In this document: one piece after another, positions 15,238-43,340 of the stretch
Layout of the letters: every line of letters starts with the position of its first letter
Numbering within the stretch: the first letter of the stretch is position 1
NCBI GenBank assembly: GCA_005116745.1
Contig: SWDS01000006.1
Location: 206,935-270,934 of the forward strand
Direction of reading: 5' to 3'
Source: Nitrospira sp.
GTDB taxonomy: Bacteria; Nitrospirota; Nitrospiria; Nitrospirales; Nitrospiraceae
DNA: 64,000 nucleotides
Translations under genes and position numbers: made by a program
Notes under the pieces: generated by a model
Seen by the model: only the letters and a program-made list of their open reading frames with translations
Told to the model about the DNA's origin: nothing
Database searches by the model: none

Positions 15238-16047
15238 CTAGTAGACCGACTTCGCCCCCGGGCCGACCTGGCTGGGGAACGGATCCAGAATGGCCTTGGG
15301 CGCGTTGTTCCAGATCACATCCGCCAGATTCGACATCCGGCTCACGATCTGCGCCGCAACTCCACCGGCCGCTCCGAACAGCCCGCACCACCCCAACGTC
15401 ACAAAGCCCCAATGCAACGGCGCCGCAAACAGCTCATCCACAAACCAGAACGCATGGCCCCACTCATTGAGGCCCACGTTCGGGAGAATCATCATCGGCC
15501 CCACCACCGCCGCCACCAACGGGAACGACGTGGCTTGGCTGTACAGTGGCAACCGGGTCTGCGCATACAGATAACTCGACACGCCGCACGTGATGTACAA
15601 CGGGAACGTCCCGTAGAACGCCACAATGTGGCTCGCCGTAAAGCTCGTGTCCCGGATGATCACTTGATGCCACGCGGCATCCTGCTCTAACGTGTAGCTG
15701 CCCGCGTAGTACACGCCCCAGATGTAGCAGGCCAACCAGCCCATCCAGTGAAAGTACCGCTTCAGCTCGAGCTTCGGGTCCAGGTTCGCCAGATTCCGAT
15801 CCCGCGTCACCCAGATCCACCCGATCGACGTGGCAAAGAACACGGCGTTGGCCAGAATGTTAAACCGCCACAGCCCCATCCACACTGATTCGAACTCTGG
15901 CGTCATGGAGTCGAGACCGTGCGAGTACCCAAACGTTCGCTGGTACACCACCCAAAACACGCCAATTGCCAACATCCCAAACCAGCCGAGCTTCGCCGAC
16001 TTTGTGTCGTACCACTGCGAGATATCATACCCTCTATCGCTGGCCAT
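15238..16047 (-). CDS. amoC: Ammonia monooxygenase subunit C
   Basis: A 269-residue membrane subunit of copper membrane monooxygenase, which oxidises ammonia to hydroxylamine. The variable-copper-site ligands are visible as Asp123, His127 and His140 in [10 protein letters not shown] and [13 protein letters not shown], with the family's D-x3-H-x12-H spacing. About six membrane helices are predicted, and the N terminus [11 protein letters not shown] is cytoplasmic-type. The ORF could start at 16065, but ATG 16047 has a GAGGGAGGG site 6 bases upstream. amoA and amoB are not nearby, so this is a stand-alone amoC like the extra copies of ammonia oxidisers. In a Nitrospira background it points to comammox. 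A hairpin and cbiX follow. Confidence 0.93.
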
Positions 16048-16529
16048 AATGTGTCCCTCCCTCAACTATATAAATCTCAGAGACTGCGCTCTCCTACTAT
16101 TTCACTACAGTGATTTCTAGAGAAAAACGCCTTCTCCTTCCTCTCACGCATATATAATTTATACTCATCAAGATACTCTTTTCAACTCAATTACCCCCAC
16201 CACTCTCATGCGAGACTAACTCTAGTATGCTCATCTTTCCATTTTTCATTATATCCTATTGATACTATTGGCATAATACAGATTATTCATCTGGCAATAT
16301 TAATGGTTAGCACGTAAGACCTACATCTAAAATTGCTACCGATTTAGCATTCTTGGTAAAGGATAGAGGTGAGAATTCATTACTGGTGATTAAAACCCCA
16401 TCTCCTGGTTGATCCATTTTCATGGATATCCTCAAGCTCGATGAGCTCAACATTGATACACCCTCATCCATAGAGTAGGATGAACGCGTTTTCTCATTTT
16501 TCAAATAGTTGACGATTTGGAGTGACGCA
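16048..16529. promoter_or_regulatory. AT-rich intergenic region with a candidate amoC promoter
   Basis: About 480 bases between the divergently arranged amoC and the DUF1566 gene, with no convincing gene. On the minus strand a candidate sigma70 promoter reads TTGAAA (16180-16185), 16 bases, TATAAA (16158-16163). It would give an amoC leader of about 100 bases. The stretch is clearly richer in A and T than its surroundings. No B12 riboswitch or tRNA-like structure was recognised. Confidence 0.35.
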
Positions 16530-17254: not shown

Positions 17255-18178
17255 TTACTGATACACGCGCTGGCGCATCGAAAGAAGAATCATCAGGCGG
17301 CTGTGTAGTGCAGGGAGATCATCGAGCAGTTCAACTTTGGTCTCACGAAGAAGGTCTCCGAACGCGCGAGCACCCTGCCCACCGACGGCCAGAGGCCATC
17401 GCGTAGCCAGTTGTTCAAACCCCTTCAGTTGTTGGAGCATAGCCTCCTCAGACTTCGCTTCAGTGAGAGAGAGAAGCACGAGATCGGGACTGATCTTGTC
17501 GCAGAAAGTCATGAGGTCTGACATGGGCAAGTTAGGGCCTAAGTAATAGACTTGGCAACCTCTCGTCGCTGCGATATACGCCACGGCTTGGGCGCCGATT
17601 TCATGCGTTTCACCTTCTGGACAAGCGATCAATACACGCGGACCGAATTCATTCACCGGAAGCTGGCTCATCACAGAAAACAACTTCTGCTGGATGAGCT
17701 TCGTCACGTAATGTTCGATGGCTGTACCAAGACGGCCTTCGTGCCACTCTTCCCCAATTCGTCGTTGTAGTGGGAGTAAAATCCGCTGGACAGCTTCTTC
17801 GAACGGAATGACGGCCACTGCACCGTTGAGCTTCCGCTCGAACCCCGCCTTATCGATCGGGGCAAGCAATCCCATCAAATCATCCAATAGATGTTCATGT
17901 GGCTTCTGTTCCTCTGCGACGAACGGAGTTGCGAGACGCATACGTGCGATCACTGCAACACGTCCCTCTGTGGCGAGACCACCGATTGTTGCGCCTTGTT
18001 CCATCTGGGCCTTCACAAAGCGAAGAAGTGCCACATCCTCATCACTGTACTCGCGATAGCGATTCGAACTTCTCGAAGGTGTGACAAGCCCATACCGCCT
18101 CTCCCACACACGAATGACGTCCTTCGACAGTCCAGTTAATTTCGCAACTCTATGAATTCTATGTTTATTCATAAACAT
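17255..18178 (-). CDS. carH: MerR-type regulator with B12-binding photosensor domain (CarH/LitR class)
   Basis: A 307-residue regulator. Residues 1-75 form a MerR winged helix (VAKLTGLSKDVIRVWERRYG). The middle is a helical bundle with the CarH signature W-x9-EH (WHEGRLGTAIEH), where Trp caps the adenosyl group. The C-terminal Rossmann domain has the cobalamin-binding E-x-H-x-x-G motif (GETHEIGAQ), whose His is the lower ligand. CarH proteins bind DNA in the dark with adenosylcobalamin and let go in light. A divergent promoter pair with 11-bp repeats lies directly upstream, so it probably controls itself and the cytochrome operon at 18309. The predicted transcript start falls on the first ATG (leaderless); an ATG two codons later is the alternative. 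Confidence 0.88.
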   Translation of the reverse strand: MFMNKHRIHRVAKLTGLSKDVIRVWERRYGLVTPSRSSNRYREYSDEDVALLRFVKAQMEQGATIGGLATEGRVAVIARMRLATPFVAEEQKPHEHLLDDLMGLLAPIDKAGFERKLNGAVAVIPFEEAVQRILLPLQRRIGEEWHEGRLGTAIEHYVTKLIQQKLFSVMSQLPVNEFGPRVLIACPEGETHEIGAQAVAYIAATRGCQVYYLGPNLPMSDLMTFCDKISPDLVLLSLTEAKSEEAMLQQLKGFEQLATRWPLAVGGQGARAFGDLLRETKVELLDDLPALHSRLMILLSMRQRVYQ

Positions 18179-18184
18179 TCTTTA

Positions 18185-18213
18185 ATTATATTAAAATGTC
18201 CAATGTTTGTCAA
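18185..18213 (-). promoter_or_regulatory. carH promoter
   Basis: On the minus strand TTGACA (18213-18208), 17-base spacer, TATAAT (18190-18185): a perfect sigma70 consensus. The spacer contains ACATTGGACAT, the repeat unit also found at the divergent promoter. Seven bases after the -10 is the A of the carH ATG, so the message may be leaderless. Confidence 0.75.
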
Positions 18214-18291
18214 AATTACTTCACGAACACTATTGACACATTGGACATGTTCAATTATACATTAGACATACAAGATACAAACATTGAACAT
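18196..18291. promoter_or_regulatory. Candidate CarH operator with 11-bp repeat units
   Basis: Plus-strand units ACATTGGACAT (18238), ACATTAGACAT (18259) and ACATTGAACAT (18281) lie 21 and 22 bases apart, in near 11-bp phase. A further unit lies in inverse orientation at 18196-18206. Known CarH proteins bind as tetramers to 11-bp direct repeats overlapping the -35 box, which fits this position. Binding itself is inferred. Confidence 0.6.
18233..18261 (+). promoter_or_regulatory. Promoter of the cytochrome/SUMF1 operon
   Basis: TTGACA (18233-18238), 17-base spacer with an operator unit, TATACA (18256-18261). The -35 boxes of this promoter and of the carH promoter are separated by 19 bases. 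The same 19-base spacing is found at 21444-21462. The predicted leader to the ATG at 18309 is about 40 bases. Confidence 0.7.
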
Positions 18292-18308: not shown

Positions 18309-18926
18309 ATGAAAGGGAGGTTCAGGCAATACTTGAGTGTGTCGGGTGGGGCCCTGCTTCTTGGTGTCGTTCTTATGGTCGGAGCAATCGCCGTGGTCTT
18401 CGGCGGCGAGCATGCCCTCTCGAGGACTGAGTTCTGCGTGAGCTGCCATTCCCAGACATATCCCTATGAGGAGCTGAAAAAGTCCTCACACTATGGCGCG
18501 CTAGGGGCCGATCCAGGCTGTAAGGATTGCCACGTCCCCCAGGGCTTAGGGAACTTCCATCTGGCTTTATGGACACACACCTATGACGGGATCCGGGCGG
18601 TGCTCGCAGAGATCAAATATGACTACTCAACGATCGAGAAATTTAACGAGCGCCGGCCAATCATGGCCCACTACGCTCGCATGTCTCTAAAAAACTGGGA
18701 CAGCGTCACTTGCCGGGAGTGCCACAAGAATACTAAGCCACCTGGCGCATCAGCGAAGGCCGCACACAAGAAGATGGAAACCGAGGGCGCCACCTGCATT
18801 GACTGCCATCAGAATCTGGTCCACAAGAAAGTCCCGGAGAGCGATCTCAATGCAAGTTTGGCGCAGGGCATCATGGTCTTGAAGGAAGTAAAAAAAGAAA
18901 CAGAAGACAAGGATGAGAAGGACTAG
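18309..18926 (+). CDS. Membrane-anchored tetrahaem cytochrome c (NapC/NrfH family)
   Basis: A 205-residue quinol-oxidising type cytochrome: one N-terminal membrane anchor (about residues 12-35), then four haem c motifs: CVSCH, CKDCH, CRECH and CIDCH. The arrangement matches the NapC/NirT/NrfH family, which takes electrons from the quinol pool to periplasmic partners; the ammonia-oxidiser cytochrome cM552 belongs here too. Start ATG with GAGGA upstream. It is the first gene after the CarH-type promoter and is followed by a cytochrome c-SUMF1 fusion, so it may supply or drain electrons for that periplasmic module. The C-terminal tail is rich in Lys and Glu. Confidence 0.88.
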   Translation: MKGRFRQYLSVSGGALLLGVVLMVGAIAVVFGGEHALSRTEFCVSCHSQTYPYEELKKSSHYGALGADPGCKDCHVPQGLGNFHLALWTHTYDGIRAVLAEIKYDYSTIEKFNERRPIMAHYARMSLKNWDSVTCRECHKNTKPPGASAKAAHKKMETEGATCIDCHQNLVHKKVPESDLNASLAQGIMVLKEVKKETEDKDEKD

Positions 18927-19037: not shown

Positions 19038-20240
19038 ATGAGTGGGAGGATGATAGCGCAATGCATCATGGTCTTGGTATCGAGCCTGACTCTCTCAGGA
19101 GGGATCGCCGGTTCGGCAGAACTCATGCCGTTGGATCCAGTGCCAGCCGCTTATGCCAACAACAAAATGCCAGCCGGTTGGTGGACGGATCCAAAAATCA
19201 TTGAGGAGGGAAAAAAGATCTATGTCGGTGAAGCCGACCCGCTTGTCTCCTGTACTGGTTGCCATGGCGAGGACGGTGAACCAGTAAGAAGTGGGGAGGG
19301 GGTTCGTAGCCTGAAACATACTAAACGCTTCTCAGACAGCTATTGGTTCTGGCGGGTGGCGGAAGGGATTCCAAAGACGCCAATGATGCCATACAAATCG
19401 CTCCTCTCAGAAGACCAGATCTGGCAAGTTGTCGCATTCATGCATACCTTCTCGCATGGAGGAAAACCTGTCGAACACAAAGATTATACGGGGTACAAGC
19501 GACCGGAGAAGATCAAGCCCAAGAATGTGGGGCCGATGGTCCTCGTGCCCGCCGGGGAATTTACGATGGGGAACAATGAAGGTGGTGACGATGAAAAGCC
19601 CGAGCACAAGGTCTTTCTCAATGCTTATTATATCGATGTCTATGAAGTAACGGTCGGGCAATATGCGAAGTTTCTTGACTTTACCAGTATATTCCCACCG
19701 CCGAAGTGGACGACTATGAACGAGCCGCCTCATCAGAACCGACCGGTTGTCAATGTCGATTGGGCGGATGCGAACAACTATTGCAAGTGGGCCGGCAAGC
19801 GCCTGCCGACCGAAGCCGAATGGGAGAAGGCGGCACGGGGAACAGATGGGCGCATCTATCCCTGGGGTAACGATCCACCCGATCCACTCCGCGCCAATTA
19901 TGGGAAAGAGAAGGAGAAGTGGAACAAACATGATGCGCTGGCGCCGGTGGGGCAATTGAAAGCCGGCAAGAGCCCCTATGGGATCTATGATCTGGCGGGA
20001 AATGTCTGGGAATGGGTGAACGACTGGTATGACCAAGACTATTATGCGACCAGCCCATCGCAAAACCCGCCAGGACCAAAAAGCGGCAAATACAAGGTGA
20101 TGCGGGGCGGCTCGTGGGACTTTGCTCCCGAGAGCCTGCGATCAGCTCGCCGGGACTTTAACATACCGTCGACCACCGACTACGACTCGCCGGCGTATCG
20201 GAACTTCAACAGTGGGTTCCGCTGTGCGAAGAGTCCGTAG
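19038..20240 (+). CDS. Secreted fusion of a cytochrome c domain and a SUMF1-type domain
   Basis: A 400-residue protein with a signal peptide (to about residue 28). Residues 50-145 form a mono-haem cytochrome c domain (CTGCHGEDGEP, with a likely Met ligand in TPMMPYKSLL). Residues about 165-400 form a SUMF1/FGE-type lectin-like fold (VLVPAGEFTMG, KRLPTEAEWEKAARG, YPWGN, LAGNVWEWVNDWY, VMRGGSWD, SGFRCAKSP). The two cysteines used by true formylglycine-generating enzymes are absent from the RGGSW region, so sulfatase activation is unlikely. A strong AGGAGG site precedes the ATG. A single ATGTCCAAT operator-like half site lies at 19001. The haem suggests a redox role. Confidence 0.85.
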   Translation: MSGRMIAQCIMVLVSSLTLSGGIAGSAELMPLDPVPAAYANNKMPAGWWTDPKIIEEGKKIYVGEADPLVSCTGCHGEDGEPVRSGEGVRSLKHTKRFSDSYWFWRVAEGIPKTPMMPYKSLLSEDQIWQVVAFMHTFSHGGKPVEHKDYTGYKRPEKIKPKNVGPMVLVPAGEFTMGNNEGGDDEKPEHKVFLNAYYIDVYEVTVGQYAKFLDFTSIFPPPKWTTMNEPPHQNRPVVNVDWADANNYCKWAGKRLPTEAEWEKAARGTDGRIYPWGNDPPDPLRANYGKEKEKWNKHDALAPVGQLKAGKSPYGIYDLAGNVWEWVNDWYDQDYYATSPSQNPPGPKSGKYKVMRGGSWDFAPESLRSARRDFNIPSTTDYDSPAYRNFNSGFRCAKSP

Positions 20241-20260
20241 GGGAACAAGGAGGCCTACCA

Positions 20261-20641
20261 ATGACACGATCTAACACCCAAATCGCTCTAACGCTGACCG
20301 GAGTTCTCGCCACGCTCCTCACCACTGGCATGCCACTCCAGTCGGCATTCGGTGAAGGTGGTGCGCGACGTGATGTCGTACGGCAAGAACAGCAAAACGT
20401 CAAAGATGCCATCAACCACGCGGCGGAAGCAGTGGAACACGGCCAACAAGGTCATGCCGAGAAGCTTGTGACCCATGCCGAAGCCTCGCTGCAGCATGTA
20501 GTTAGAGGAGGGGAAAACCCGCATTTGGCAGAAGCGATGACCAATCTGAAAGCAGCGATTGAGCATGGTAAAGCTGGTCATGCTGACGTGGCTACGAAAC
20601 ATGCCGAAACTGCCGTCACCCACCTCTCTCAAGTCAAGTAA
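20261..20641 (+). CDS. SmbP-like small metal-binding protein
   Basis: A 126-residue secreted protein. After the signal peptide, the mature part is a helical repeat with regularly spaced histidines (for example NHAAEAVEHGQQGHAEK, HAEASLQH, AAIEHGKAGHADVATKHAE). This is the pattern of SmbP, the periplasmic metal-binding four-helix protein first known from Nitrosomonas, which binds copper and other divalent metals. It follows the cytochrome-SUMF1 gene by 20 bases with a good AGGAGG site, so it belongs to the same operon. A second, less His-rich relative is at 26423. Confidence 0.8.
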   Translation: MTRSNTQIALTLTGVLATLLTTGMPLQSAFGEGGARRDVVRQEQQNVKDAINHAAEAVEHGQQGHAEKLVTHAEASLQHVVRGGENPHLAEAMTNLKAAIEHGKAGHADVATKHAETAVTHLSQVK

Positions 20642-20675
20642 CGGATGAACACCTCTCACGAAAGATGGCTTGTAC

Positions 20676-21116: not shown

Positions 21117-21414
21117 ATGATCGACCTCTCCTCGTAATCCGCGAGATATGGTTTGCCTCATGAATCGATCCAACCTGTGATCCAACTCAGCAAAGTTCTC
21201 CAGCACCCGAGCACATATTCTTCATACGGTAGTTGATCAATAACTCACGCCTGGCGAGCACGCCATCTTTCTCTCCGCAGTTTCGGTATCCATTCACTCC
21301 CCTAGTCAGTTTCATAAGACCAACTCGACGTCCACAGGCTTGAATGACATATCTGGATAGGCCCACGAGCTTCGTAACTATATATTTTATTTAAATATTT
21401 CATTTTATAAATCT

Positions 21415-21443
21415 ATTCTATTTTTATGTCCATTGTTTGTCAA
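21415..21443 (-). promoter_or_regulatory. Minus-strand promoter of the second CarH-type site
   Basis: TTGACA (21443-21438), 17-base spacer, TAGAAT (21420-21415). The spacer contains ACAATGGACAT, one mismatch from the unit in the carH promoter. It points to the DCC gene. About 290 bases of AT-rich leader follow without a recognisable gene. Confidence 0.6.
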
Positions 21444-21462
21444 CTCTTTTTAATGATAACAC

Positions 21463-21510
21463 TTGACACCTTGGACATTATGCTTTATACATTAGACATA
21501 CTTTTGACAT
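21463..21510 (+). promoter_or_regulatory. Plus-strand promoter and operator units of the second CarH-type site
   Basis: TTGACA (21463-21468), 17 bases, TATACA (21486-21491), the same boxes and spacing as at 18233. Units ACCTTGGACAT (21468), ACATTAGACAT (21489) and ACTTTTGACAT (21500) keep an 11-bp phase. The -35 boxes of the two divergent promoters are again 19 bases apart. It probably drives the zinc-ribbon gene at 21540 and what follows. Confidence 0.65.
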
Positions 21511-21539
21511 ACACTGAGCCTCATTCAATGGAGGTCGCC

Positions 21540-21830
21540 ATGGCAAGCGCGAAACAAAGAACGAGAGTCGGTGAACTTGGAAGTAAATCAGACTTCTCTC
21601 CAACACTGCGTCCATCAAGCTGCTGCAGATGTGGCGGTCTTATGGTGAAGGAAATCTCTATGGACCTGTGGAATAGCATGAGCGAATTAGAATGCGTCAC
21701 AAGACGATGCGTGCAGTGCGGTGACATCATCGATGCCGTCATTTTACGTAATCGTTGCGTTCATCAAGAGCCAACGACCATCCAACATCCAAGACAATCT
21801 TTAGGGCGCGCGGGCTCAATCGAGAGATGA
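21540..21830 (+). CDS. Small zinc-ribbon-like protein, function unknown
   Basis: A 96-residue protein with two CxxCG-type knuckles (CCRCGGLMVKE and CVQCGDIIDAVI) about 33 residues apart, a likely zinc ribbon. The start at 21540 has a GGAGG site 8 bases upstream. The longer frame from 21426 would run through the promoter and is rejected. The N terminus is basic, and the C-terminal 30 residues have no clear structure. It lies 40-50 bases behind the CarH-type promoter, so it is probably part of that regulon. It could be a DNA-binding or regulatory protein, but no family was recognised. Confidence 0.6.
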   Translation: MASAKQRTRVGELGSKSDFSPTLRPSSCCRCGGLMVKEISMDLWNSMSELECVTRRCVQCGDIIDAVILRNRCVHQEPTTIQHPRQSLGRAGSIER

Positions 21831-22681: not shown

Positions 22682-23626
22682 ATGCGGAGTGTAATGGCGT
22701 TTTCGGTGGGATTGGGGGTGACGGTGATGGTAGGAGCCGTCTCAGTCGCCACAGCGGGGGACATGGTGCTCATCCCAAAGGGAGAATTTACCATGGGTAG
22801 TAGCGAGCATTCGGATGAGGCCCAGCACCAGGTTGTGCTTGATGCCTATCTGATCGACAAGTTCGAAGCCTCGAATGCACGCTACAAGGAGTTTATGAAG
22901 GCAACCAGTCACCCGGCACCGGCCTATTGGGACGACCCAAGGCTCAGTAAGCCTACCCATCCAGTTGTCGGTGTGAGCTGGACTGATGCCAATGCGTTCT
23001 GCAAGTGGGATGGCAAACGGCTTCCGACGGAAGCGGAGTGGGAGCGAGCGGCTAAGGGTCCACAGGGCGACAACCACTACCCATGGGGACACATGCTGGA
23101 TCCCAAGAAGGCCAACTATGGGCAGAACGTGGGCCGCACCGCGCCAGTCGATTCCTACCCAGATGGAGTAAGCGGGTTTGGCGTCTACAACATGGCCGGC
23201 AACGTCTTCGAATGGGTCGAGGATTGGTATGACCTCAACTACTACAAGACCAGTCCAGCAATGAATCCCCGCGGCGCCGAAAAGGGGTACAACTTCGCCA
23301 ATCAAGGACCGGTGAAAGTGCTCCGTGGTGGGTCCTGGCTTGCGCCGGAAACCTCTCTCCATACGAGTCACCGATTCTGGAATCAGCCTGATAATAATTC
23401 ATACGGAGTCGGTCTTGGATTTCGTTGCGCAAAGTCTGTACAGACGGTTTCGGACGAAGCCGTACAAACAGGACGTGACGCCTTTATTCAGGCGCTAGTC
23501 GCCATGGGTGCCGAAAAGAATGCGGATGCCATGGCTGCCATTGAGAAAGCATTGGCCTCGGATCCGGGAAACCAGGAGTACCTAGCAACCCGTGAACTGA
23601 TCCAGAAGGGTATGAAGAAGAAGTAG
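22682..23626 (+). CDS. Secreted SUMF1-domain protein with helical C-terminal extension
   Basis: A 314-residue protein. Signal peptide ending at about residue 26, then a complete SUMF1/FGE-type domain (VLIPKGEFTMGSSE, KRLPTEAEWERAAKG, YPWGH, MAGNVFEWVEDWY, VLRGGSWLAPE, LGFRCAKS) to about residue 255, then a helical tail of about 55 residues resembling a single TPR unit. It lacks the catalytic cysteines of formylglycine-generating enzymes. It is a close paralogue of the gene at 25312, including the tail; both share SHPAPAYWDDPRL. AAGGAGG precedes the ATG. Role unknown; other SUMF1 relatives such as NirV, PvdO and EgtB show how varied the fold's uses are. Confidence 0.82.
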   Translation: MRSVMAFSVGLGVTVMVGAVSVATAGDMVLIPKGEFTMGSSEHSDEAQHQVVLDAYLIDKFEASNARYKEFMKATSHPAPAYWDDPRLSKPTHPVVGVSWTDANAFCKWDGKRLPTEAEWERAAKGPQGDNHYPWGHMLDPKKANYGQNVGRTAPVDSYPDGVSGFGVYNMAGNVFEWVEDWYDLNYYKTSPAMNPRGAEKGYNFANQGPVKVLRGGSWLAPETSLHTSHRFWNQPDNNSYGVGLGFRCAKSVQTVSDEAVQTGRDAFIQALVAMGAEKNADAMAAIEKALASDPGNQEYLATRELIQKGMKKK

Positions 23627-23635
23627 TCGAAGCCT

Positions 23636-23660
23636 GGGAGGGGGGTTATCGCCCCCTCCC
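23636..23660 (+). terminator. GC-rich hairpin after the first stand-alone SUMF1 gene
   Basis: Perfect 9-bp stem (GGGAGGGGG with CCCCCTCCC) and 7-base loop, 10 bases after the stop. No T-run follows, so it may be a partial terminator or a stability element before the SDR gene. Confidence 0.5.
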
Positions 23661-23689
23661 CTGGTCCAAGTCGTGATGAGAGGTCTGAA

Positions 23690-25246
23690 GTGAATAAGTC
23701 TGACACCACTGGTCCAAGTACATCGACGGCGAACCCAGCAGCAACCCCAGGCACCTCCCTCATGCTTCTCACTGGCGCGAGCGGGTACATTGGCGGCCGT
23801 CTTCTGCCGTCGTTAGAAAATCAGGGCTACCGCCTGCGCTGCCTGGCCAGGCGCCCAGAGATTCTTAAGCCGAAGGTCAGTCCATCAACGGAAGTTGTGG
23901 CGGGTGACGTCCTTGATCGAGCAAGTCTCGACAACGCGTTCTGCGGGGTCGACGTGGCCTACTACATGGTCCATTCCATGAGTTCGACTGGCTCGTTTGA
24001 GGAGACGGACCGGCAGGCGGCGCGGAACTTTAGTGAAGCGGCCAAGGCAGCTGGTGTGAAGGGACTCATCTATGTGGGAGGCTTGGGCAGCGACGAAGAA
24101 GAACTCTCGGCACACTTGCGCAGTCGGCACGAGGTCGGTGACATCTTGAGGCAGTCGGGCCTACCGGTCTGTGAGTTTCGGGCATCCGCCGTGATTGGCT
24201 CCGGCAGTGCCTCGTTTGAGCTGGTTCGAGCGCTGGTCGAACGATTGCCGATCATGCTCACACCGAGATGGGTCAAAGGGAAGGCGCAGCCGATCGGAAT
24301 CGACGACTTGTTGGACTATCTGATTGAAGCGCTTCAGATTCCTCTCTCCCAATACCGTATCTATGAAGTCGGCGGGGCAGACAAAGTCTCCTACGCGGAT
24401 ATGATGCGGGCATACGGGCGGCAACGCGGGCTTAAGCCGCTCATCATCCCAGTGCCGGTCCTCACCCCCTGGCTGTCTGCTCTGTGGTTGGGGTTGATCA
24501 CACCGCTCTACGCTCGCATCGGTCGAGCGATTATTGAGAGCATCGTCCATGTCACGGTGGTACGGGACAATGCTGCGCTGACAACCTTCTCTGTACGTCC
24601 GATGGGAATCGATGAAGCGATGCACCGAGCCCTTGTCCGTGAGGAGCGACATTTCTCCGAAACGCGCTGGTCCGATGCGCTCTCTTCATCCGGCAGGCTG
24701 CCGTCGTGGGGAGGCGTCCGGTTCGGCACGCGCATCGTCGATTCACGAACGTTGACCGTCGAAGCGCCACCAGAAGCCGTCTTCAGGTCCATTGAGAGAA
24801 TCGGAGGTAACCATGGTTGGTACGCCTGCAACTGGCTGTGGCGGGTGCGCGGCTTCATCGACCTCATTCAAGGGGGTGTCGGCATGGGACGGGGACGGCC
24901 CTCTTCCACGACCCTCCGCGTCGGCGACACGGTCGACTCATTTCGCGTCGAAGCGATCGAGCCGAATCAGCGCCTGCGGCTTAAGTCCGAGATGAATTTG
25001 CCTGGGCGGGCATGGCTGGAGTTTGAGGTGACGGAGGCCGGCTCTTCAACACAGATACGGCAGACGGCGATCTTTGATCCGGTGGGACTGAAAGGCCAGC
25101 TATACTGGTATTCCCTCTACGTGCCGCATGAGTTTGTGTTCAATGGGATGTTACGGGGAATCGCGCAAGCCGCGTTGCGAGAAATGAGGGACCTCGATAC
25201 GTCGAAAATGCCAAATGGGCAGACGGCAACGCAGCACCACCGCTGA
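23690..25246 (+). CDS. SDR-type NAD(P)-binding protein fused to DUF2867
   Basis: A 518-residue cytoplasmic protein from a GTG start with GAGAGG upstream. The first 300 residues are an NmrA/SDR-like Rossmann domain (LLTGASGYIGGRLLP, with YVGGLGSDEE and the RSRHEVGDILRQSG stretch). The last 160 residues match DUF2867, a START/polyketide-cyclase-like fold (GNHGWYACNWLWRVRGFIDL, LKGQLYWYSLYVPHEF). This SDR-DUF2867 fusion is typical of light- and LitR/CarH-linked gene groups. It sits between the paralogous SUMF1 genes at 22682 and 25312. The substrate is unknown. Confidence 0.82.
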   Translation: MNKSDTTGPSTSTANPAATPGTSLMLLTGASGYIGGRLLPSLENQGYRLRCLARRPEILKPKVSPSTEVVAGDVLDRASLDNAFCGVDVAYYMVHSMSSTGSFEETDRQAARNFSEAAKAAGVKGLIYVGGLGSDEEELSAHLRSRHEVGDILRQSGLPVCEFRASAVIGSGSASFELVRALVERLPIMLTPRWVKGKAQPIGIDDLLDYLIEALQIPLSQYRIYEVGGADKVSYADMMRAYGRQRGLKPLIIPVPVLTPWLSALWLGLITPLYARIGRAIIESIVHVTVVRDNAALTTFSVRPMGIDEAMHRALVREERHFSETRWSDALSSSGRLPSWGGVRFGTRIVDSRTLTVEAPPEAVFRSIERIGGNHGWYACNWLWRVRGFIDLIQGGVGMGRGRPSSTTLRVGDTVDSFRVEAIEPNQRLRLKSEMNLPGRAWLEFEVTEAGSSTQIRQTAIFDPVGLKGQLYWYSLYVPHEFVFNGMLRGIAQAALREMRDLDTSKMPNGQTATQHHR

Positions 25247-25311
25247 ACCGGGCACACCGAAAGAGGCGGGACTGCTTGTATGGACAAACCAATTTGTGAT
25301 GGAGGTCTGCG

Positions 25312-26370
25312 ATGCATACAGCAAGAATCATTGTGATCGCGGCGCTGGCAACCGCATTCATAACAGTGAACCCGGCAGCCCGTGCGGAAGATCCCTTGCT
25401 ACCAAAGGACATGGTGTATATCGGGCAGGGAGGATCGGTGATGGGGCTCGACCGGGAGGAGCCCGTAAACACGAGCAAGAAGCCCACGCTTTACGAACAG
25501 CGGATGAAGACACCTTGGTCTGCAGAAGCACTGAACGACGAAAGTCCGGCTCATATGGTGTTCTTGGATCCATACTTCATTGATAAGTACGAAGTATCGA
25601 ACAAAGACTATGGTGAATTCATCAAGGCAAAAAGTCACCCAGCTCCGGCCTACTGGGACGATCCCCGTTTAAATAAGTCTCAACTGCCCGTCGTCGGGGT
25701 GAATTGGGAGGACGCCAGAGCCTTCTGCGACTATCGAGGCAAACGGCTGCCGACTGAAGCAGAGTGGGAAAAGGCCGCTCGAGGTCCAGATGGTAATCTC
25801 TATCCCTGGGGCAACGCTTTTGATCCAACGAAAGTCAATTATGGGAAAAAGCACGATGCCACCATGCCCGTTGACTCATACCCAGAAGGAGCCAGCTATT
25901 ACGGCCTACACCACATGTCCGGCAATGTCTTCGAGTGGGTCTCAGACTGGTATGACCCGCGCTACTATGGACGGCTTGAAACGAGCCTGAATCCAAGCGG
26001 CCCGGCTCGACCCTTATGGATGGGAGGAACCGGGACGTACGTGGATCGTCTGACCGTCGGCGAGAAGCGCGTTATTCGCGGTGGGTCTTGGATCGCACCG
26101 GAGGGCACAGCGAGGGCGACCCACCGGTTCTGGAATCATCCACTCAATAACAGCTACGGCGTGGGTCTGGGATTCCGCTGCGCGAAGGCTGCCCCACCAG
26201 AAATCGACCAGCGAATCAAAGACGCCGCCATCTTGACCTACGTCGAAATGGGACGAGAGCGCTTTGCGGAAGCTCAGCAGACCCTTGCTCCAGCACTGGC
26301 CCTTGACCCAAAGAATAGGGAGCTCCTGGATCTTCGACAATTGATCGAACAATCGATGAAGCGACCGTGA
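25312..26370 (+). CDS. Secreted SUMF1-domain protein (paralogue of 22682)
   Basis: A 352-residue protein with a signal peptide (cut likely after PAARA), an insert of about 30 residues near the N terminus (EEPVNTSKKPTLYEQRMK) and a SUMF1-type domain (AHMVFLDPYFIDKYEVS, KRLPTEAEWEKAARG, YPWGN, MSGNVFEWVSDWYD, VIRGGSWIAPE, LGFRCAKA). A C-terminal helical tail of about 55 residues matches that of 22682. It has no cysteine pair in the RGGSW region, hence is probably not a formylglycine-generating enzyme. GGAGG precedes the ATG. It is followed by an SmbP-like gene and another SUMF1 gene, apparently in one operon. Confidence 0.82.
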   Translation: MHTARIIVIAALATAFITVNPAARAEDPLLPKDMVYIGQGGSVMGLDREEPVNTSKKPTLYEQRMKTPWSAEALNDESPAHMVFLDPYFIDKYEVSNKDYGEFIKAKSHPAPAYWDDPRLNKSQLPVVGVNWEDARAFCDYRGKRLPTEAEWEKAARGPDGNLYPWGNAFDPTKVNYGKKHDATMPVDSYPEGASYYGLHHMSGNVFEWVSDWYDPRYYGRLETSLNPSGPARPLWMGGTGTYVDRLTVGEKRVIRGGSWIAPEGTARATHRFWNHPLNNSYGVGLGFRCAKAAPPEIDQRIKDAAILTYVEMGRERFAEAQQTLAPALALDPKNRELLDLRQLIEQSMKRP

Positions 26371-26422
26371 AGGAAGATTTCACGCGACTTGTACATGATT
26401 TGATCGTGACGGAGGCGAACCA

Positions 26423-26791
26423 ATGATACTCAAGAAGATTCTTTATCGAGGGATTGTCCTCATCGCCCTACTCGGAGCCTCATCCCTCCACGCTGGGCCC
26501 ATCGATTCACCCGGACACGCGCATCAGGATAAGGCCCAGCTGGTCCATAAGGCTAATCATGAAGTGGACCAGGCATGGGAGGTCTACCATCGGGCAGCAT
26601 TGGGGGGAACAGTCGCCTCGCCTGCCCTTCAGGCGGAAATCGAGCAGCACCTGCACGAAGCCAGAACCCTCGTGACCCAGGCACAAGAAGCAGCTGACCG
26701 AGGAGACAAGCGTCAGGTTGAAGCGCTCATCAAGCAAGTAAGACTCCATACCACCCAAGCCATCAAGGGTAGCAAGGAGCAGAAGAAATGA
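26423..26791 (+). CDS. Small secreted SmbP-like helical protein
   Basis: A 122-residue secreted protein: signal peptide (IALLGASSLHAGP), then helical repeats with scattered histidines (SPGHAHQDKAQLVHKANHEV, EIEQHLHEARTLVTQAQEA, VRLHTTQAIKG). The layout is like the SmbP-type protein at 20261 but with fewer histidines, so metal binding is likely though less certain. Its stop overlaps the start of the next SUMF1 gene by four bases, a sign of coupled synthesis. Confidence 0.65.
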   Translation: MILKKILYRGIVLIALLGASSLHAGPIDSPGHAHQDKAQLVHKANHEVDQAWEVYHRAALGGTVASPALQAEIEQHLHEARTLVTQAQEAADRGDKRQVEALIKQVRLHTTQAIKGSKEQKK

Positions 26792-27633
26792 TCACTGGTC
26801 TGTGGCAGAGATCAACTCAGCTCAAGAGAATGATGATGGCGGTTGTCACAGCTCTGGCGCTGATGCAATTGCTCAGCCTGGAAGCATTCGCTGGAGCGAA
26901 AGAGCTTGACCCGGTGCCGATGGTCACGATTCCGGCCGGGGACTTTCTGATGGGCAATCCAGAAGGAAAAGGCCGTGATGATGAGCGACCTCAGCGATCC
27001 GTCTACCTCGACGAGTTTGCGATCGATCAAGTCGAAGTGACGAATGAACGGTATATGGCCTTTGTGAAATCCGTTGGCCATCGCACACCACCCAATCCCT
27101 ATGGCACCGGGCCTCTCCAATCCATTAAAGGCATTGAGCAACTACCGGTGGTCCAGACAACTTGGTACGACGCGAAGGCCTATTGTAGTTGGGCGAAGAA
27201 ACGGCTGCCGACGGAAGCAGAATGGGAAAAGGCTGCTCGCGGGACTGACGGCCGCCTCTACCCCTGGGGGAATGAACCACCCACGGCGAAGCGAGCAAAC
27301 ATTGATCGAGAGTGGGAGGATGAGCGTACCCTGCATGCGGTCGGATCGCTTCCCGATGGAGATTCACCCTACGGAGTGAAGGATATGGCCGGAAACGTCA
27401 GGGAGTGGGTCTCCGACTGGTACGACGCGGACTACTATCAACATGCGCCCAATCGGAATCCGCAAGGTCCGGACAAAAAGGGAGTGGTTCGGTCGATTCG
27501 TGGTGGGTCCTGGCATAGTCCAGCGTCCGATATCACCACATCGGCGCGCGGTCGTGGCGGGTTCGCCTTGCAGACCCATGGTACAGGCTTTCGATGTGTC
27601 CGTGGTGTCGAGGAAGCGATCCAGAAGAAGTAA
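26788..27633 (+). CDS. Secreted SUMF1-domain protein without tail
   Basis: A 281-residue protein with an N-terminal signal (MMMAVVTALALMQLLSLEAFA). It consists of a single SUMF1-type domain: VTIPAGDFLMGNPEG, QVEVTNERYMAFVKS, KRLPTEAEWEKAARG, YPWGNEPP, MAGNVREWVSDWYD, SIRGGSWHSPASD, GTGFRCVRG. The formylglycine catalytic cysteines are missing. It is translationally coupled to the SmbP-like gene and is the fourth SUMF1-domain gene within 9 kb. A hairpin at 27748 probably ends this transcription unit. Confidence 0.82.
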   Translation: MITGLWQRSTQLKRMMMAVVTALALMQLLSLEAFAGAKELDPVPMVTIPAGDFLMGNPEGKGRDDERPQRSVYLDEFAIDQVEVTNERYMAFVKSVGHRTPPNPYGTGPLQSIKGIEQLPVVQTTWYDAKAYCSWAKKRLPTEAEWEKAARGTDGRLYPWGNEPPTAKRANIDREWEDERTLHAVGSLPDGDSPYGVKDMAGNVREWVSDWYDADYYQHAPNRNPQGPDKKGVVRSIRGGSWHSPASDITTSARGRGGFALQTHGTGFRCVRGVEEAIQKK

Positions 27634-27972: not shown

Positions 27973-28035
27973 GACACTATCGGCTTGCCAGGCGTATCAG
28001 TCGGCCTGTCGATAGCTCTTTCAGGAGTTATGTCT

Positions 28036-28974
28036 ATGAACATCGTCGTAGCTGGAGGAACAGGGTTCATTGGTCAAGCGCTGTGCGCAACGCTCTTATA
28101 CGGTGGCCACAGAGTCAGTCTCCTGACAAGACATGCAGGACAGGTTCTGCACCGACCTGACGCACGTGTGAACGTGGCGGAATGGAATGCGCGTGACATG
28201 GGCCCCTGGGAGGAGCTCCTTGAAGGAGCCGATGCCGTCGTTAATCTAGCCGGGGCACCGATAGCCGACGGACGCTGGACCGATGAGCGCAAGCGACTCC
28301 TTACCGAAAGCCGAGTCCTCACTACCCGCTTACTAGTCAGAGCGCTGTCCCGCCGGTCATCGAAACCCCCGGTGTTTATCAGTGCCTCTGGCATCGGCTA
28401 TTACGGCGCCAGCGATGACCGCCAATTGGATGAAGGCGCGGCTCGTGGCACCGGATTTCTCGCTGACCTTTGTCTTGCCTGGGAGGCGGAAGCGATGAGC
28501 GCCGCAGAATTTGGGACCCGCGTGGTCCTCTTGCGAACCGGCATGGTCCTCGAGGCAGACGGTGGTGCGTTGGGCAAAATGTTATTGCCGTTCAGGCTGT
28601 TTGCAGGCGGCCCGATTATGCCGGGAACCCAGTGGGTCTCATGGATTCATCGGAGTGACCACATCGGTCTGATCCAATGGGCCCTCACCACGACCGCAGT
28701 TTGCGGTCCGATCAATGCCGTAGCCCCAGAGCCTGTGAGGATGAACACGTTCTGTGACGTTCTCGGTCAAGCGATGCACCGACCGTCGTGGCTTCCCGTT
28801 CCAGGCATTGCATTGAATATGCTGCTGGGAGAGTTGGGGACATTGATGACAACCGGCCAACGAGTGATTCCGAAGAAAGCGATGGCAAGAGGCTATGTGT
28901 TTCGTTACCCGACGCTCGAATCCGCTTTGCGAGCCGTGCTCAAGAAACCGATCGCCGCAGAGCCTATGACATGA
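28036..28974 (+). CDS. TIGR01777 family NAD(P)-binding epimerase-like protein
   Basis: A 312-residue extended SDR. The Rossmann motif is VVAGGTGFIGQAL, the family hallmark FISASGIGYYG occurs near residue 115, and the C terminus holds the DUF1731-like part (VIPKKAMARGYVFRYPTLES). Starts at 27985 and 28030 are possible, but ATG 28036 has AGGAG at the best distance. Biochemical function is not established for the family. It often lies in gene groups with photolyases and SDR-DUF2867 proteins, as here. Confidence 0.85.
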   Translation: MNIVVAGGTGFIGQALCATLLYGGHRVSLLTRHAGQVLHRPDARVNVAEWNARDMGPWEELLEGADAVVNLAGAPIADGRWTDERKRLLTESRVLTTRLLVRALSRRSSKPPVFISASGIGYYGASDDRQLDEGAARGTGFLADLCLAWEAEAMSAAEFGTRVVLLRTGMVLEADGGALGKMLLPFRLFAGGPIMPGTQWVSWIHRSDHIGLIQWALTTTAVCGPINAVAPEPVRMNTFCDVLGQAMHRPSWLPVPGIALNMLLGELGTLMTTGQRVIPKKAMARGYVFRYPTLESALRAVLKKPIAAEPMT

Positions 28975-29541: not shown

Positions 29542-30987
29542 GTGCGAGGAATGGTTTGGTTCAGGCGCGATCTTCGAATGCACGACCAGCCGGCTCTGAC
29601 CGCGGCCTGTGCGGAATGCGACGAGATCATTCCGCTGTTTATATTTGATGAGCCGTTGCTGCAATCGCATGAGTTTGGATCAGCCTGTGTGAACTTCATG
29701 CTGGGATGCCTCGAAGATCTGAACGCTGCGTTGAGTGGATTGGGAACGCCGCTCCAATGGAGGCGGGGTGACCCAGTCGAACAGGTCGTACAAGCAGCAC
29801 GTGAATGGAAAACTGACGTGGTCTATTGGAATCGCGACTACGAGCCGGGAGCCATCGAGCGGGACCGGCTGGTGCAACAGCGTTTGGCAAAGCTCGGGGT
29901 GGCGGTGCGGACGTTCAAAGACCATGTGGTGTTTGAAGCATCCGAGGTGCGGGGCGCGACGGGTGAGCCATTGCAACGGTACAGCGCCTATCGCTCACGC
30001 TGGTGGGCTAAATGGCATGCCACAACCCCAGTAGTTCAACCAATCCCAACCACCCTTGCAAAAATAAAAGCCGCACCGCTGCCACTCTCTCGTCCTCTTC
30101 CCACCGCCGGTGAGCTGGGGTACGAGCCTATCGTCTTGGCGTTTGAGCCTGGCGAGCAGAACGCCCTGAAGCGATTGCGCTGGTTCATGAAAGGACCGCT
30201 TCATTCCTATGCGCAAGGTAGAAACCTGCCGGCAATCGATGGCAGTTCAACACTTTCCCCGCACTTCCGGTTCGGAACACTGTCGCCGCGCATGGCCATT
30301 CACGCTGCGTTGAATGCACTGACTAAAGGTAGGCCAGTGTCCCGGGTTGATGTCCTGACCTGGGTTGATGAGTTGATCTGGCGTGAGTTCTTCCAGCAAG
30401 TTCTCACATCCTTTCCACATGTCGCGAAGGGCCCGTTCAGAACAGTCATCGTCCCACCAGCTCGACCAGCTGGGAATAAACGAGATCGGCTGTTTCAAAC
30501 GTGGTGTGAGGGAAAGACCGGCTATCCCATTGTGGATGCAGGCATGAGGCAACTCAACCAGACAGGATGGATGCATAACCGTGTTCGAATGATCGTCGCG
30601 TCATTCCTAATCAAAGATCTGCGGATCGACTGGCAGAGCGGCGAACGGTATTTCATGCAACATCTGATTGATGCTGACGTGGCGGCAAACAACGGCAATT
30701 GGCAGTGGTGTGCCTCAACTGGCACCGATAGTATGCCCGGCTATCGAATCTTTAACCCTGCGCTCCAGAGCAAGAAGTTCGACCCCGACGGAACCTACAT
30801 TCGCCGGTATGTTCCTGAACTGGCCCGTGTACCGGCGAAGAGGATTCATGAGCTGCATCTCATGACCGCAGATGAGCAAGAACGCGCTGGATGCCGAATC
30901 GGGACCACTTATCCTTCCCCGATTGTGGACCATCACCTCGCCCGTCAGGAATATCTCAACCTCGGGAAGCAGGAGGCAACGAGATGA
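29542..30987 (+). CDS. phrB: Deoxyribodipyrimidine photolyase (cryptochrome/photolyase family)
   Basis: A 481-residue light-driven DNA repair enzyme that splits cyclobutane pyrimidine dimers. The N-terminal antenna domain starts with MVWFRRDLRMHDQPAL. The FAD domain shows the conserved AGMRQLNQTGWMHNRVRMI, DADVAANNGNWQWCASTG and FNPALQSKKFDPDG motifs, including the Asn and Trp residues near FAD. The likely GTG start has GGGAG upstream; an ATG three codons in is possible. Its stop overlaps the next gene by four bases. This is the gene whose presence best links the cluster to light. Confidence 0.92.
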   Translation: MRGMVWFRRDLRMHDQPALTAACAECDEIIPLFIFDEPLLQSHEFGSACVNFMLGCLEDLNAALSGLGTPLQWRRGDPVEQVVQAAREWKTDVVYWNRDYEPGAIERDRLVQQRLAKLGVAVRTFKDHVVFEASEVRGATGEPLQRYSAYRSRWWAKWHATTPVVQPIPTTLAKIKAAPLPLSRPLPTAGELGYEPIVLAFEPGEQNALKRLRWFMKGPLHSYAQGRNLPAIDGSSTLSPHFRFGTLSPRMAIHAALNALTKGRPVSRVDVLTWVDELIWREFFQQVLTSFPHVAKGPFRTVIVPPARPAGNKRDRLFQTWCEGKTGYPIVDAGMRQLNQTGWMHNRVRMIVASFLIKDLRIDWQSGERYFMQHLIDADVAANNGNWQWCASTGTDSMPGYRIFNPALQSKKFDPDGTYIRRYVPELARVPAKRIHELHLMTADEQERAGCRIGTTYPSPIVDHHLARQEYLNLGKQEATR

Positions 30988-31937
30988 CGACCTCCCCGCT
31001 TCGTCTTGGAATCAGTCGGTGTCTTCTCGGAGATGAGGTTCGCTTCGACGGAGGACATAAGCAGGACCATTTCCTAACCGATGTCTTGGGCCGCTACGTC
31101 GAATGGGTACCGGTCTGCCCTGAGGTGGAAGCGGGATTGGGCACCCCGCGTGAAGCCATGCGTCTGATGGGCAATCCGCATCATCCCCGGCTCATGACAA
31201 TTAAGAGCAAGCACGATCACACCCAGGCAATGGAGACGATGATCGCCACGCGTCTTGATTCGTTCCAAAAACAGGACCTCTCAGGGTTTGTCTTCAAGAG
31301 AGGTTCACCCAGTTGCGGAGTCGAACGGGTGCGTGTGTACACCGTACAGGGCATGCCGAGCCATAACGGGGTCGGGATCTTTGCGAAAGCCTTCACAGAG
31401 GAGTTTCCGTTGATTCCCGTCGAGGAGGAAGGGCGGCTCTGTGATCCTGCGCTCAGAGAGAACTTCATCGAACGAGTGTTCTGCTACCGACGCTTTCAGG
31501 ATCTGGTCCAGAACGGAGTCACAAAACAGGCTTTGATACGCTTCCACACGATTCACAAATACCTGCTCTTAGCCCATAGCCAGCAACACTACGAAACGAT
31601 GGGGCGGCTGGTCGGCCAAACGAAACGGTATCAACTCAAAGAATTGACGTTGAAGTACGGTGAGCACTTCATGAGAGCCCTGACCATGAAGGCGACGGTG
31701 CGCAAGCATGTCAATGTGCTGCAGCATATTGTGGGCTACTTCAAGAGTCGATTGAGCACTCATGAAAAGGCCGAGCTGTTGGGCGTGATCGCAGACTACC
31801 ATAAGGGGCTTACGCCGTTGATCGTCCCTCTCACGCTGGTCAAACATTACGTCCAGATCTTCGACGTCGGGTACATTCGCGATCAGGTCTATCTTAACCC
31901 GCATCCGAAAGAGCTCATGTTGCGGAATCATGCGTAG
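30984..31937 (+). CDS. DUF523-DUF1722 fusion protein (YbgA-like)
   Basis: About 317 residues. The N-terminal DUF523 domain has SRCLLGDEVRFDGGHK and FKRGSPSCGVERV with conserved cysteines. The C-terminal DUF1722 domain has RFHTIHKYLLLAHSQQHYE. Recent knowledge of the family suggests a thiouracil-desulfurising role for DUF523 members, but the function of the fusion is not settled. It is commonly adjacent to photolyase genes, and here its ATG overlaps the phrB stop. A longer frame from 30891 lies within phrB and is rejected. Confidence 0.85.
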   Translation: MTTSPLRLGISRCLLGDEVRFDGGHKQDHFLTDVLGRYVEWVPVCPEVEAGLGTPREAMRLMGNPHHPRLMTIKSKHDHTQAMETMIATRLDSFQKQDLSGFVFKRGSPSCGVERVRVYTVQGMPSHNGVGIFAKAFTEEFPLIPVEEEGRLCDPALRENFIERVFCYRRFQDLVQNGVTKQALIRFHTIHKYLLLAHSQQHYETMGRLVGQTKRYQLKELTLKYGEHFMRALTMKATVRKHVNVLQHIVGYFKSRLSTHEKAELLGVIADYHKGLTPLIVPLTLVKHYVQIFDVGYIRDQVYLNPHPKELMLRNHA

Positions 31938-32551: not shown

Positions 32552-32602
32552 CGATGCTTGAGACGGCGTCAGATCAGACGCCTCTACCTGGAGACAGGGC
32601 TA

Positions 32603-33667
32603 ATGCAGAATCTCACTCATCTTGCATTGAATTTGGCGGAACAGGGGCTGGTTCCAGACTTGGCCGTTCGATATGGCATTCGACAGTTGCTCAAGCAGCG
32701 CCTCCGGGAGATCCGTTCAGTCGACGCTCCAACGGCAGCCCGGCAGGAAGTGCGATTTATCGACCAGATGCGCTGTGCGCCCATCGCAGTGGTACCGGAG
32801 AAAGCCAATGATCAGCACTATGAAGTCCCGGTTGAGTTCTTCCGGCAGGTCCTCGGTCCCCACCTCAAATACAGCAGCGCCTTCTGGCCCGCCAACGCGA
32901 CGACCCCAGGCCAAGCAGAAGCCGCCGGTTTGCGTGAGTCCTGTCTGCATGCGGGCCTGATAGACGGACAGACGATTTTGGAGCTCGGATGCGGCTGGGG
33001 TTCCCTCACGTTGTGGATGGCTGAGCACTACCCCGATAGCCGTATCACGGCGGTCTCCAATTCCCACTCACAGCGGGCGTACATCGAGGCCCAAGCCAGA
33101 GCACGCGGCCTACAGAACCAGATTCGGGTGATGACCTTCGACATGAATACGTTCGAGGTCGACCCAGGGCAATTCGATCGGGTGGTGTCGGTGGAAATGT
33201 TCGAACACATGCGTAACTGGCCTGATCTCTTTGCGCGCGTCCGCCGATGGCTGAAACCAGGCGGCCAGTTCTTCATGCACGTGTTCGTGCATCGTGCTAC
33301 TTCGTACCTGTTCGAAGACCGGGGGCCCGCCGACTGGATGAGTCGTGAATTTTTCACAGGCGGGATGATGCCCAGCGATAGCCTCCCGCTGGCCTGTCAG
33401 GACCATCTTGCCTGCGTGGACCGCTGGCGATGGGACGGCACGCACTATGAGAAGACGGCCAACGCCTGGTTGGCCAATATGGATGCTGCCCGCGAGACCC
33501 TGTGGCCTGTGATCGAGCGTGTCTACGGTAAGACACAAGCGCGAGCCTGGTGGGGGCGGTGGCGTCTCTTCTTCATGGCCTGTGCCGAGCTCTTCGGTTA
33601 TGAGGAGGGCCGTCAGTGGGGGGTGAGTCATTATCTTTTTGAAAAACAAGTGCCGCGTGCTTCATGA
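32603..33667 (+). CDS. SAM-dependent methyltransferase, cyclopropane-fatty-acid-synthase class (first copy)
   Basis: A 354-residue enzyme. The SAM motif is ILELGCGWGSLTLWMAEHYP, followed by VVSVEMFEHMRNW. The family methylates or cyclopropanates unsaturated fatty acyl chains of phospholipids. The N-terminal 95 residues (RCAPIAVVPEKANDQHYEVP) differ from classical Cfa and resemble the shorter methyltransferases found with flavin oxidases and DUF1365. The start is uncertain: ATG 32603 has GGAG upstream, other frames begin at 32558. It overlaps the DUF2878 gene by four bases. Confidence 0.85.
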   Translation: MQNLTHLALNLAEQGLVPDLAVRYGIRQLLKQRLREIRSVDAPTAARQEVRFIDQMRCAPIAVVPEKANDQHYEVPVEFFRQVLGPHLKYSSAFWPANATTPGQAEAAGLRESCLHAGLIDGQTILELGCGWGSLTLWMAEHYPDSRITAVSNSHSQRAYIEAQARARGLQNQIRVMTFDMNTFEVDPGQFDRVVSVEMFEHMRNWPDLFARVRRWLKPGGQFFMHVFVHRATSYLFEDRGPADWMSREFFTGGMMPSDSLPLACQDHLACVDRWRWDGTHYEKTANAWLANMDAARETLWPVIERVYGKTQARAWWGRWRLFFMACAELFGYEEGRQWGVSHYLFEKQVPRAS

Positions 33668-34215
33668 AGATGAGCACCACCATGATCGTCAGCAACTTTG
33701 TCCTTTTTCAGATTGGCTGGTTTGCGTGCGTGTTAAGCGCCACAGCGCATCAACCCTGGTTCGGCATCCTTGTGACGACAGCGGTGGTAGTCACCCACGT
33801 GCTTCGCGCTCCCATCCCAACGGCGGAGCTCAAACTGGTGCTCCTCTCACTCGGCTTAGGACTCGTCCTTGATAGCCTATTGGTTTGGCAGGGCTGGCTT
33901 CAGTATTCCTCGGGAATCCTGCTCCCGAACGTAGCCCCATACTGGATCGTGGCATTGTGGGGGCTCTTTGCAACCCTCTTGAATATCTCATTGCGTTGGA
34001 TGAGGGGCCGCTGGGTCCTCGCAATTGTCTTTGGAGCCGTCGGGGGCCCTGCCGCCTACTACGGCGGTCTCCGCCTCGGGGCGCTGGAATTCAGCAATAT
34101 GCCCGCAGGGCTGTTGGCTCTGGCCATCGGCTGGGCGCTGCTGACACCGCTGCTGCTGGCGTTGTCTTCGCGCTTTGACGGCTATGCCGGCCTGGTGAAA
34201 AAGAAGGCGTCATGA
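33664..34215 (+). CDS. DUF2878 membrane protein
   Basis: A 183-residue protein with about five or six membrane helices (for example FVLFQIGWFACVLSA, LKLVLLSLGLGLVLDSLLVW). It contains the DUF2878 signs QIGWFACV near the N terminus and GPAAYYGGLRLGA late in the chain. Function is unknown. It overlaps both neighbours by four bases, the methyltransferase before and DUF1295 after, so it works in the same lipid-modifying operon. Confidence 0.8.
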   Translation: MKMSTTMIVSNFVLFQIGWFACVLSATAHQPWFGILVTTAVVVTHVLRAPIPTAELKLVLLSLGLGLVLDSLLVWQGWLQYSSGILLPNVAPYWIVALWGLFATLLNISLRWMRGRWVLAIVFGAVGGPAAYYGGLRLGALEFSNMPAGLLALAIGWALLTPLLLALSSRFDGYAGLVKKKAS

Positions 34216-35000: not shown

Positions 35001-35013
35001 GGAAACAGCAGTC

Positions 35014-35685: not shown

Positions 35686-35692
35686 GGACACC

Positions 35693-36223: not shown

Positions 36224-36402
36224 TGCGCCCCAGCAAGTCATGGGACACGTCGATTGTACTGTGGTGACAGATATGCCGACTGTCGGGACCGGGTTGGCGC
36301 TCAACACGAGCGTAAGGGAATCATACCGGCTGTCGATATTCTTGAGGCCTCTTACACAGTCTCGCTTGGTCCGGATCGGATCAACGAGGCACTGAAGCAC
36401 AT

Positions 36403-42362: not shown

Positions 42363-42388
42363 TCCTCGTTCCTTATCGATATGCGGTT

Positions 42389-43009: not shown

Positions 43010-43029
43010 GTCGCGTGCCTCCTCACTTG

Positions 43030-43325: not shown

Positions 43326-43340
43326 CAAGGAGGTCACATT

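Follow-up and report, generated by a model that had tools for sequence, protein, structure and literature searches.

Two divergent promoter pairs with CarH-type operator repeats in a comammox-type Nitrospira point to a probable B12-gated light-response regulon

The 64,000-nucleotide stretch of Nitrospira DNA analysed here (the window) exhibits two divergent promoter pairs of the same layout, at positions 18185-18261 and 21415-21491, associated with 11-bp repeats of the CarH type. We consider it highly probable that both are CarH operators, repressed in the dark by the adenosylcobalamin (AdoCbl)-bound protein and released by light, the second pair having been built for a regulator now lost (CarH-B) and being read by the surviving CarH-A. 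Judging from these sequences, nitrifiers probably run a B12-gated light-response programme. The source is a comammox-type Nitrospira (genome size 3.86 Mb), an assignment based on an intact amoC in the window and on the closest named relatives, which are Nitrospira MAGs. By its gene content the window is part of a putative light-response island with a photolyase, RudS, cyclopropane synthases and a glutathione peroxidase. Inhibition of nitrification by light is well documented. In the comammox N. inopinata, light below 550 nm is inhibitory, a blue-green effect for which no genetic mechanism is given (PMC9797979); this is a range sensed by CarH proteins (PMC9304148).

At the first site, the carH-A promoter (TTGACA-N17-TATAAT; 18185..18213, minus strand, boxes in the order 18213-18185) is paired with a plus-strand promoter (TTGACA-N17-TATACA; 18233..18261) preceding a NapC/NirT-type cytochrome operon. 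At the second, a minus-strand promoter on the carH-B side, the intact gene of which is now gone (TTGACA-N17-TAGAAT; 21415..21443, read 21443-21415), is paired with a plus-strand promoter (TTGACA-N17-TATACA; 21463..21491) for a zinc-ribbon/FGE/photolyase cluster. All these promoters were identified from sequence. The TTGACA boxes face apart, and their separation is exactly 19 bp at both sites. This layout, including the 17-base spacers and the -10 boxes, is present just as a first-pass annotation had described it, and the first pair does adjoin a carH gene, carH-A (17255..18178, minus strand). In the whole 3.86-Mb genome, a mismatch-free TGTCAA-N19-TTGACA is confined to these two sites; with one mismatch allowed, its count equals that of the reversed-pattern control. 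Tandem 11-bp TnnACA repeats, searched for over the window, turned up only at the two divergent sites. In relatives the separation varies, being mostly 17-20 bp and exactly 19 bp in 33 of 63 cases; six larger separations of 28-29 among the 63 are probably misassignments. Activator-type MerR promoters have spacers of 19-20 bp. The 17-bp spacers rule out such a promoter here and fit repression.

The experimentally derived CarH repeat is nnnnTnnACAn; in published CarH operators the -35 box lies inside one repeat, a few repeats are combined with pseudorepeats, and operators vary (PMC9304148). The unit ACATTGGACAT matches this repeat. On the minus strand of the first site, two CarH-type repeats of 11 bp stand in tandem (18196..18217): the one holding the -35 box, and ACATTGGACAT. 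On the plus strand, ACATTGGACAT lies in the spacer (18238..18248) with the next repeat 21 bp on, and three tandem 11-bp units, namely ACATTAGACAT, the pseudorepeat ACAAGATACAA and ACATTGAACAT, extend over the -10 box and the start region (18259..18291) and are kept in relatives. The second site exhibits two tandem 11-bp repeats on the minus strand, the -35 repeat and ACAATGGACAT (21426..21447), and the operator repeats ACCTTGGACAT, ACATTAGACAT and ACTTTTGACAT, the last two in tandem, on the plus strand (21468..21510). As is characteristic of a CarH operator, the predicted nnnnTnnACAn repeats overlap the -35 and -10 boxes. An 11-bp phase running through the spacers, also proposed in the first-pass annotation, stands only in part. 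On the minus (carH) sides the -35 box repeat and the neighbouring unit are exactly 11 bp apart, and the plus sides are in register from the -10 box onward, with a repeat-pseudorepeat-repeat array at the first site and two repeats at the second. The phase is broken on the plus sides by a step of 9 bp from the -35 box to the first unit and one of 21 bp from the first to the second unit. The operators therefore do not keep the 11-bp register over their whole length, which is not strictly required of CarH operators. The local density of TnnACA is moderately above that of local shuffles (p = 0.04 and 0.01 at the two sites), and the strong evidence is cross-genome conservation rather than this density alone. 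We also tried a single unit as a diagnostic: ACATTRGACAT with one mismatch gave 64 genome matches against 25 for the reversed-pattern control. As the lone unit is not diagnostic, full operators and half-sites were used instead.

The carH-A gene encodes a protein with Pfam domains MerR_1 (N-terminal, DNA-binding), B12-binding_2 and B12-binding. It carries both cobalamin ligand/upper-face motifs, Wx9EH (as WHEGRLGTAIEH) and ExHxxG (as ETHEIG). A phmmer alignment with Thermus CarH (E = 2e-34) covers nearly the full length and places equivalents of the Thermus ligand and upper-face residues W131/H132/E141/H142/H177 in the window protein. The Wx9EH motif is present in all 64 of 64 homologs and ExHxxG in 46/64, the 18 exceptions all being CarH-B. 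The score against the NCBIfam equivalog TransRegCarH (152 bits) is below its 400-bit cut-off, CarH being by far the best match, so we describe the protein as a CarH-family homolog and not as an NCBI-defined CarH equivalog. The genome encodes an AdoCbl-making cobalamin adenosyltransferase. The proposal that CarH is the controlling protein is thus well supported by the full-length MerR and B12 architecture, by repeats that fit the CarH consensus, and by the co-occurrence of operator and carH across the genus.

Homologs of carH were found in 54 of 79 genomes of the genus Nitrospira, and the operator is present upstream of carH in 63 of the 68 regions extracted. An operator profile built from 46 sites and scanned against all 79 genomes matches in 54. 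Both carH and operator are present in 52 genomes and neither in 23, with carH only in two and operator only in two (Fisher p ~2e-15, Fisher values here treating related genomes as independent). In the two carH-only genomes one site is masked by N and the other is divergent; of the operator-only genomes, one has its carH truncated at a contig end and one carries a carH-B relic. Over the Nitrospiraceae, the profile matches 109 of 175 genomes, in 11 of 22 genera; the operator and half-site models were trained on sites of the same kind, and their E-values describe distribution and are not independent functional proof. The invariant columns are the repeat units and the -35 box, whereas the intervening DNA diverges, even between paralogs that are about 50% identical. 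A regulon signature in a Nitrospira setting is therefore borne out by conservation and co-occurrence with carH. A genome search did not place the repeats at many unrelated promoters: apart from carH and the positions of carH-B, only two other conserved targets gave matches.

To judge from the comparison with relatives, and beyond what the first-pass annotation had noticed, the second pair is the promoter of a second regulator, carH-B, which is a deleted relic here, its operator having outlived it. In a phylogenetic tree the CarH homologs split into CarH-A (the window type) and CarH-B, separate and deeply divergent clades with 100/100 support. The CarH-B clade comprises 18 proteins, the gene being intact in 18 relatives. 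Several genomes with both genes intact exhibit the order carH-A, NapC cytochrome, cytochrome c-FGE, SMBP, DCC1, carH-B, zinc ribbon/FGE/photolyase cluster. In the window, part of the DNA-binding domain of carH-B is still recognisable by homology at 21250..21378 (minus strand; CarH-B residues 9-51, 51% identity, E = 4e-11), and MLENFAELDHRL, located where the DCC1 ORF begins (21171..21206, minus strand), is probably a C-terminal remnant, with a matching remnant in the relative L074. Relics adjoining a retained operator are likewise found in G078, G017, G015 and G005, and in some genomes the second operator persists although little or nothing of the relic can be recognised. CarH-B homologs (e.g. 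L088:5403-6284 and L118:3460-4329) depart from ExHxxG; in L118 the motif reads EEHDIA, with the histidine kept and the glycine replaced. The light response of CarH-B may accordingly differ. One genome, G024, has three carH genes in a span of 8 kb (L069:906-8934): two belong to type A and one to type B, and the middle gene has a partly decayed operator. The carH-B relic offers a natural test of cross-regulation between paralogs.

Downstream of the first site, domain searches identify a NapC/NirT-type membrane cytochrome c (18309..18926), a cytochrome c fused to an FGE-sulfatase (sulfatase-modifying factor-like) domain (19038..20240) and a small metal-binding protein (SMBP; 20261..20641), all on the plus strand. 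The second operon, also on the plus strand and of predicted extent, begins with a small CxxC zinc-ribbon-like protein (21540..21830) recognised by sequence and synteny, with no match in Pfam or NCBIfam. It is followed by three FGE-sulfatase proteins, an NmrA/DUF2867 SDR protein and a small protein (22682..27633; domains, and synteny with carH), an Epimerase/DUF1731 SDR protein (28033..28974; domains, synteny), a DNA photolyase (29542..30987; domains) and RudS (2-thiouracil desulfurase plus DUF1722; 30891..31937; domains, PMC11417400). Further plus-strand genes, assigned by domains, encode two cyclopropane-type synthases, DUF2878, DUF1295, DUF6134, a lipocalin, an FAD oxidoreductase and DUF1365 (32558..39757), and an FAD amine-oxidase-family protein (40088..41347) linked by synteny to carH or glutathione peroxidase (GPx) in relatives. 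An Adhesin_E-like and a GPx-like protein lie on the minus strand (41955..43024; domains, homology). Genes linked to carH across the genus encode FGE proteins, SDR proteins, photolyase and RudS, a set to which the window contributes cyclopropane-type synthases, DUF1295, DUF2878, DUF1365 and FAD oxidoreductases. Photolyase and photo-oxidative stress genes are thus linked to carH, as in LitR/CarH light regulons. The window holds four FGE-sulfatase proteins (19038-27633), one of them the cytochrome c fusion, and their linkage to carH is tight across the genus.

Two further candidate targets, likewise beyond the first-pass annotation, carry CarH-type half-sites. The sequence TTGACAAACAATGGACAT recurs elsewhere in this genome, about 90 bp upstream of the coding match to a sigma-70 paralog (G000 C6:987725; L066:9725-11102). 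The paralog is present in 13 genomes including this one, all 13 having a CarH-type half-site 88-129 bp upstream, which in nine departs from the consensus at no more than one position. Its presence is not significantly associated with that of carH (Fisher p 0.21), and the case for it rests on the conserved promoter and not on co-occurrence with carH. A fragment resembling a glutathione-peroxidase protein lies near the paralog on the opposite strand (L066:9342-9611). The other target is a glutathione peroxidase operon, beside which CarH-type half-sites are found in 20 genomes, the best preserved being inverted, their -35 boxes 8 bp apart. E-values of the half-site model, trained on these sigma and GPx half-sites, describe distribution only. 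On contigs that are long enough, a singleton amoC or what is left of one adjoins in most cases, and a 220-aa protein lacking any Pfam match often precedes it. G005, G076, G075 and G015 have this amoC at full or nearly full length; in others it is truncated by contig ends, and it is decayed in the window, where a weakened half-site/promoter (TTGACT-N17-TAAAGT with ACATTGGACGC; 43091..43119, plus strand, identified from sequence) lies between the GPx gene and an amoC remnant recognised by homology (43332..43430, plus strand), intact in several relatives. Intact counterparts of this third site of the window are found in L209, L210 and L229. Among genomes with amoC-family matches, the GPx/amoC site is present in 17 of 37 with carH against 2 of 20 without (p 0.008), one of these two having carH cut by a contig end.

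Another singleton amoC, intact by domain and family match (15238..16065, minus strand), adjoins the carH locus of the window, and an intact singleton amoC also lies beside carH in L070, L071, L102 and L109. Control of the window gene by CarH was considered and set aside, as no tandem TnnACA/CarH repeat was found upstream of it in the window. Tentatively, CarH might in comammox Nitrospira directly control a singleton amoC, the glutathione peroxidase and the spare sigma-70 factor, in a B12-gated light programme that would help replace or protect photodamaged AMO; we hold this possible but less likely than not. The amoC link is attractive because the inhibitory light for N. inopinata is in a range sensed by CarH and because singleton amoC in ammonia-oxidizing bacteria is tied to stress (PMC6311188).

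By analogy with the CarH family we infer that these promoters are most likely repressed in the dark by AdoCbl-CarH and released by light, which the 17-bp spacers and the repeats covering the -35 and -10 boxes support. In the dark, AdoCbl-loaded CarH oligomers would bind the TnnACA repeats, -35 boxes included and -10 boxes overlapped, blocking sigma-70 RNA polymerase and so repressing carH itself and the divergent operons. Light would break the Co-C bond and take CarH off the DNA. The programme induced would comprise the NapC-type cytochrome, cytochrome c-FGE and SMBP from the first site; photolyase, RudS, FGE proteins and lipid- and FAD-modifying enzymes from the second; and the spare sigma-70 factor elsewhere in the genome. 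As both sites share one consensus, the surviving CarH-A would be expected to read the former operator of carH-B. An operator conserved family-wide would give the light inhibition of nitrification a definite sensor, predictions on wavelength and cofactor, and a set of genes; if true, the light response of B12-dependent nitrifiers would be tied to cobalamin supply.

CarH could also bind these operators independently of B12 and light, or as a B12-status regulator, the programme following redox state or cobalamin supply. CarA of Myxococcus is B12-independent. The B12 auxotrophy documented in Nitrospira marina (PMC8115632) and the 18 CarH-B departures from ExHxxG are in keeping with such a role, which we nonetheless regard as unlikely, since CarH-A retains the ligand and tryptophan motifs and the island carries a light-specific photolyase and RudS. 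Slightly less likely still, the two sites may be alike only through duplication of a carH promoter, the second being a non-functional leftover of the dead regulator on whose relic it lies. The CarH tree, with its separate clades, rules out recent duplication as the whole explanation, and so does the fact that the sites stay alike while the DNA separating their conserved units has diverged; moreover, the second operator outlasts any recognisable relic in some genomes and precedes an intact operon. That the repeats are targets of some other regulator, with carH nearby by chance, seems very improbable. Half-sites at the sigma and GPx/amoC loci do lie apart from carH, and occur in G006 and G042, both incomplete assemblies, where no carH was found; full operators, however, are present essentially only with carH or its relic, and the repeat sequence fits the CarH consensus.

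The reading of both pairs as CarH operators agrees with the CarH systems of Thermus thermophilus, Bacillus megaterium and Myxobacteria (PMC9304148) in the MerR plus cobalamin-binding architecture and its ligand motifs, in the TnnACA repeats overlapping -35 and -10 boxes, in the position of carH at the operator and, for some species, in divergent promoters. As in Thermus and Myxococcus, one repeat takes in the -35 box. In contrast to those operators, the Nitrospira repeats are divided between two blocks of inverted orientation within a single divergent promoter pair, one unit next to the -35 box is out of the 11-bp register, and the targets, instead of carotenoid genes, make up a cytochrome/FGE/photolyase island in a nitrifier. 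The class II LitR regulons of Pseudomonas (PMC9758184) similarly have photolyase, SDR, FAD oxidoreductase, a fatty-acid-modifying enzyme and RudS (PMC11417400) near the regulator. Class II LitR, however, is without a full B12 domain and uses a LOV protein, whereas the Nitrospira protein has the full B12 module. Light regulators acting through a further transcription factor are known from the LitR-LitS (Streptomyces) and LdrP (Thermus) cascades. The Nitrospira candidate differs from these (LdrP is cited in PMC11417400) in being a sigma-70 (RpoD/RpoS-type) paralog, not an ECF sigma factor or a CRP/FNR protein. Nitrosomonas singleton amoC3, a stress gene (cited in PMC6311188), likewise represents a spare amoC under stress-type control; in Nitrospira the candidate regulator is CarH and light, and the site-adjacent amoC is intact only in relatives, not in the window. 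No link of CarH to nitrifiers was found in the literature searched. The photoreceptor and the operator type are known, whereas the nitrifier regulon, the split operator, the promoter of a relic regulator and the links to amoC and sigma-70 appear to be new in that literature.
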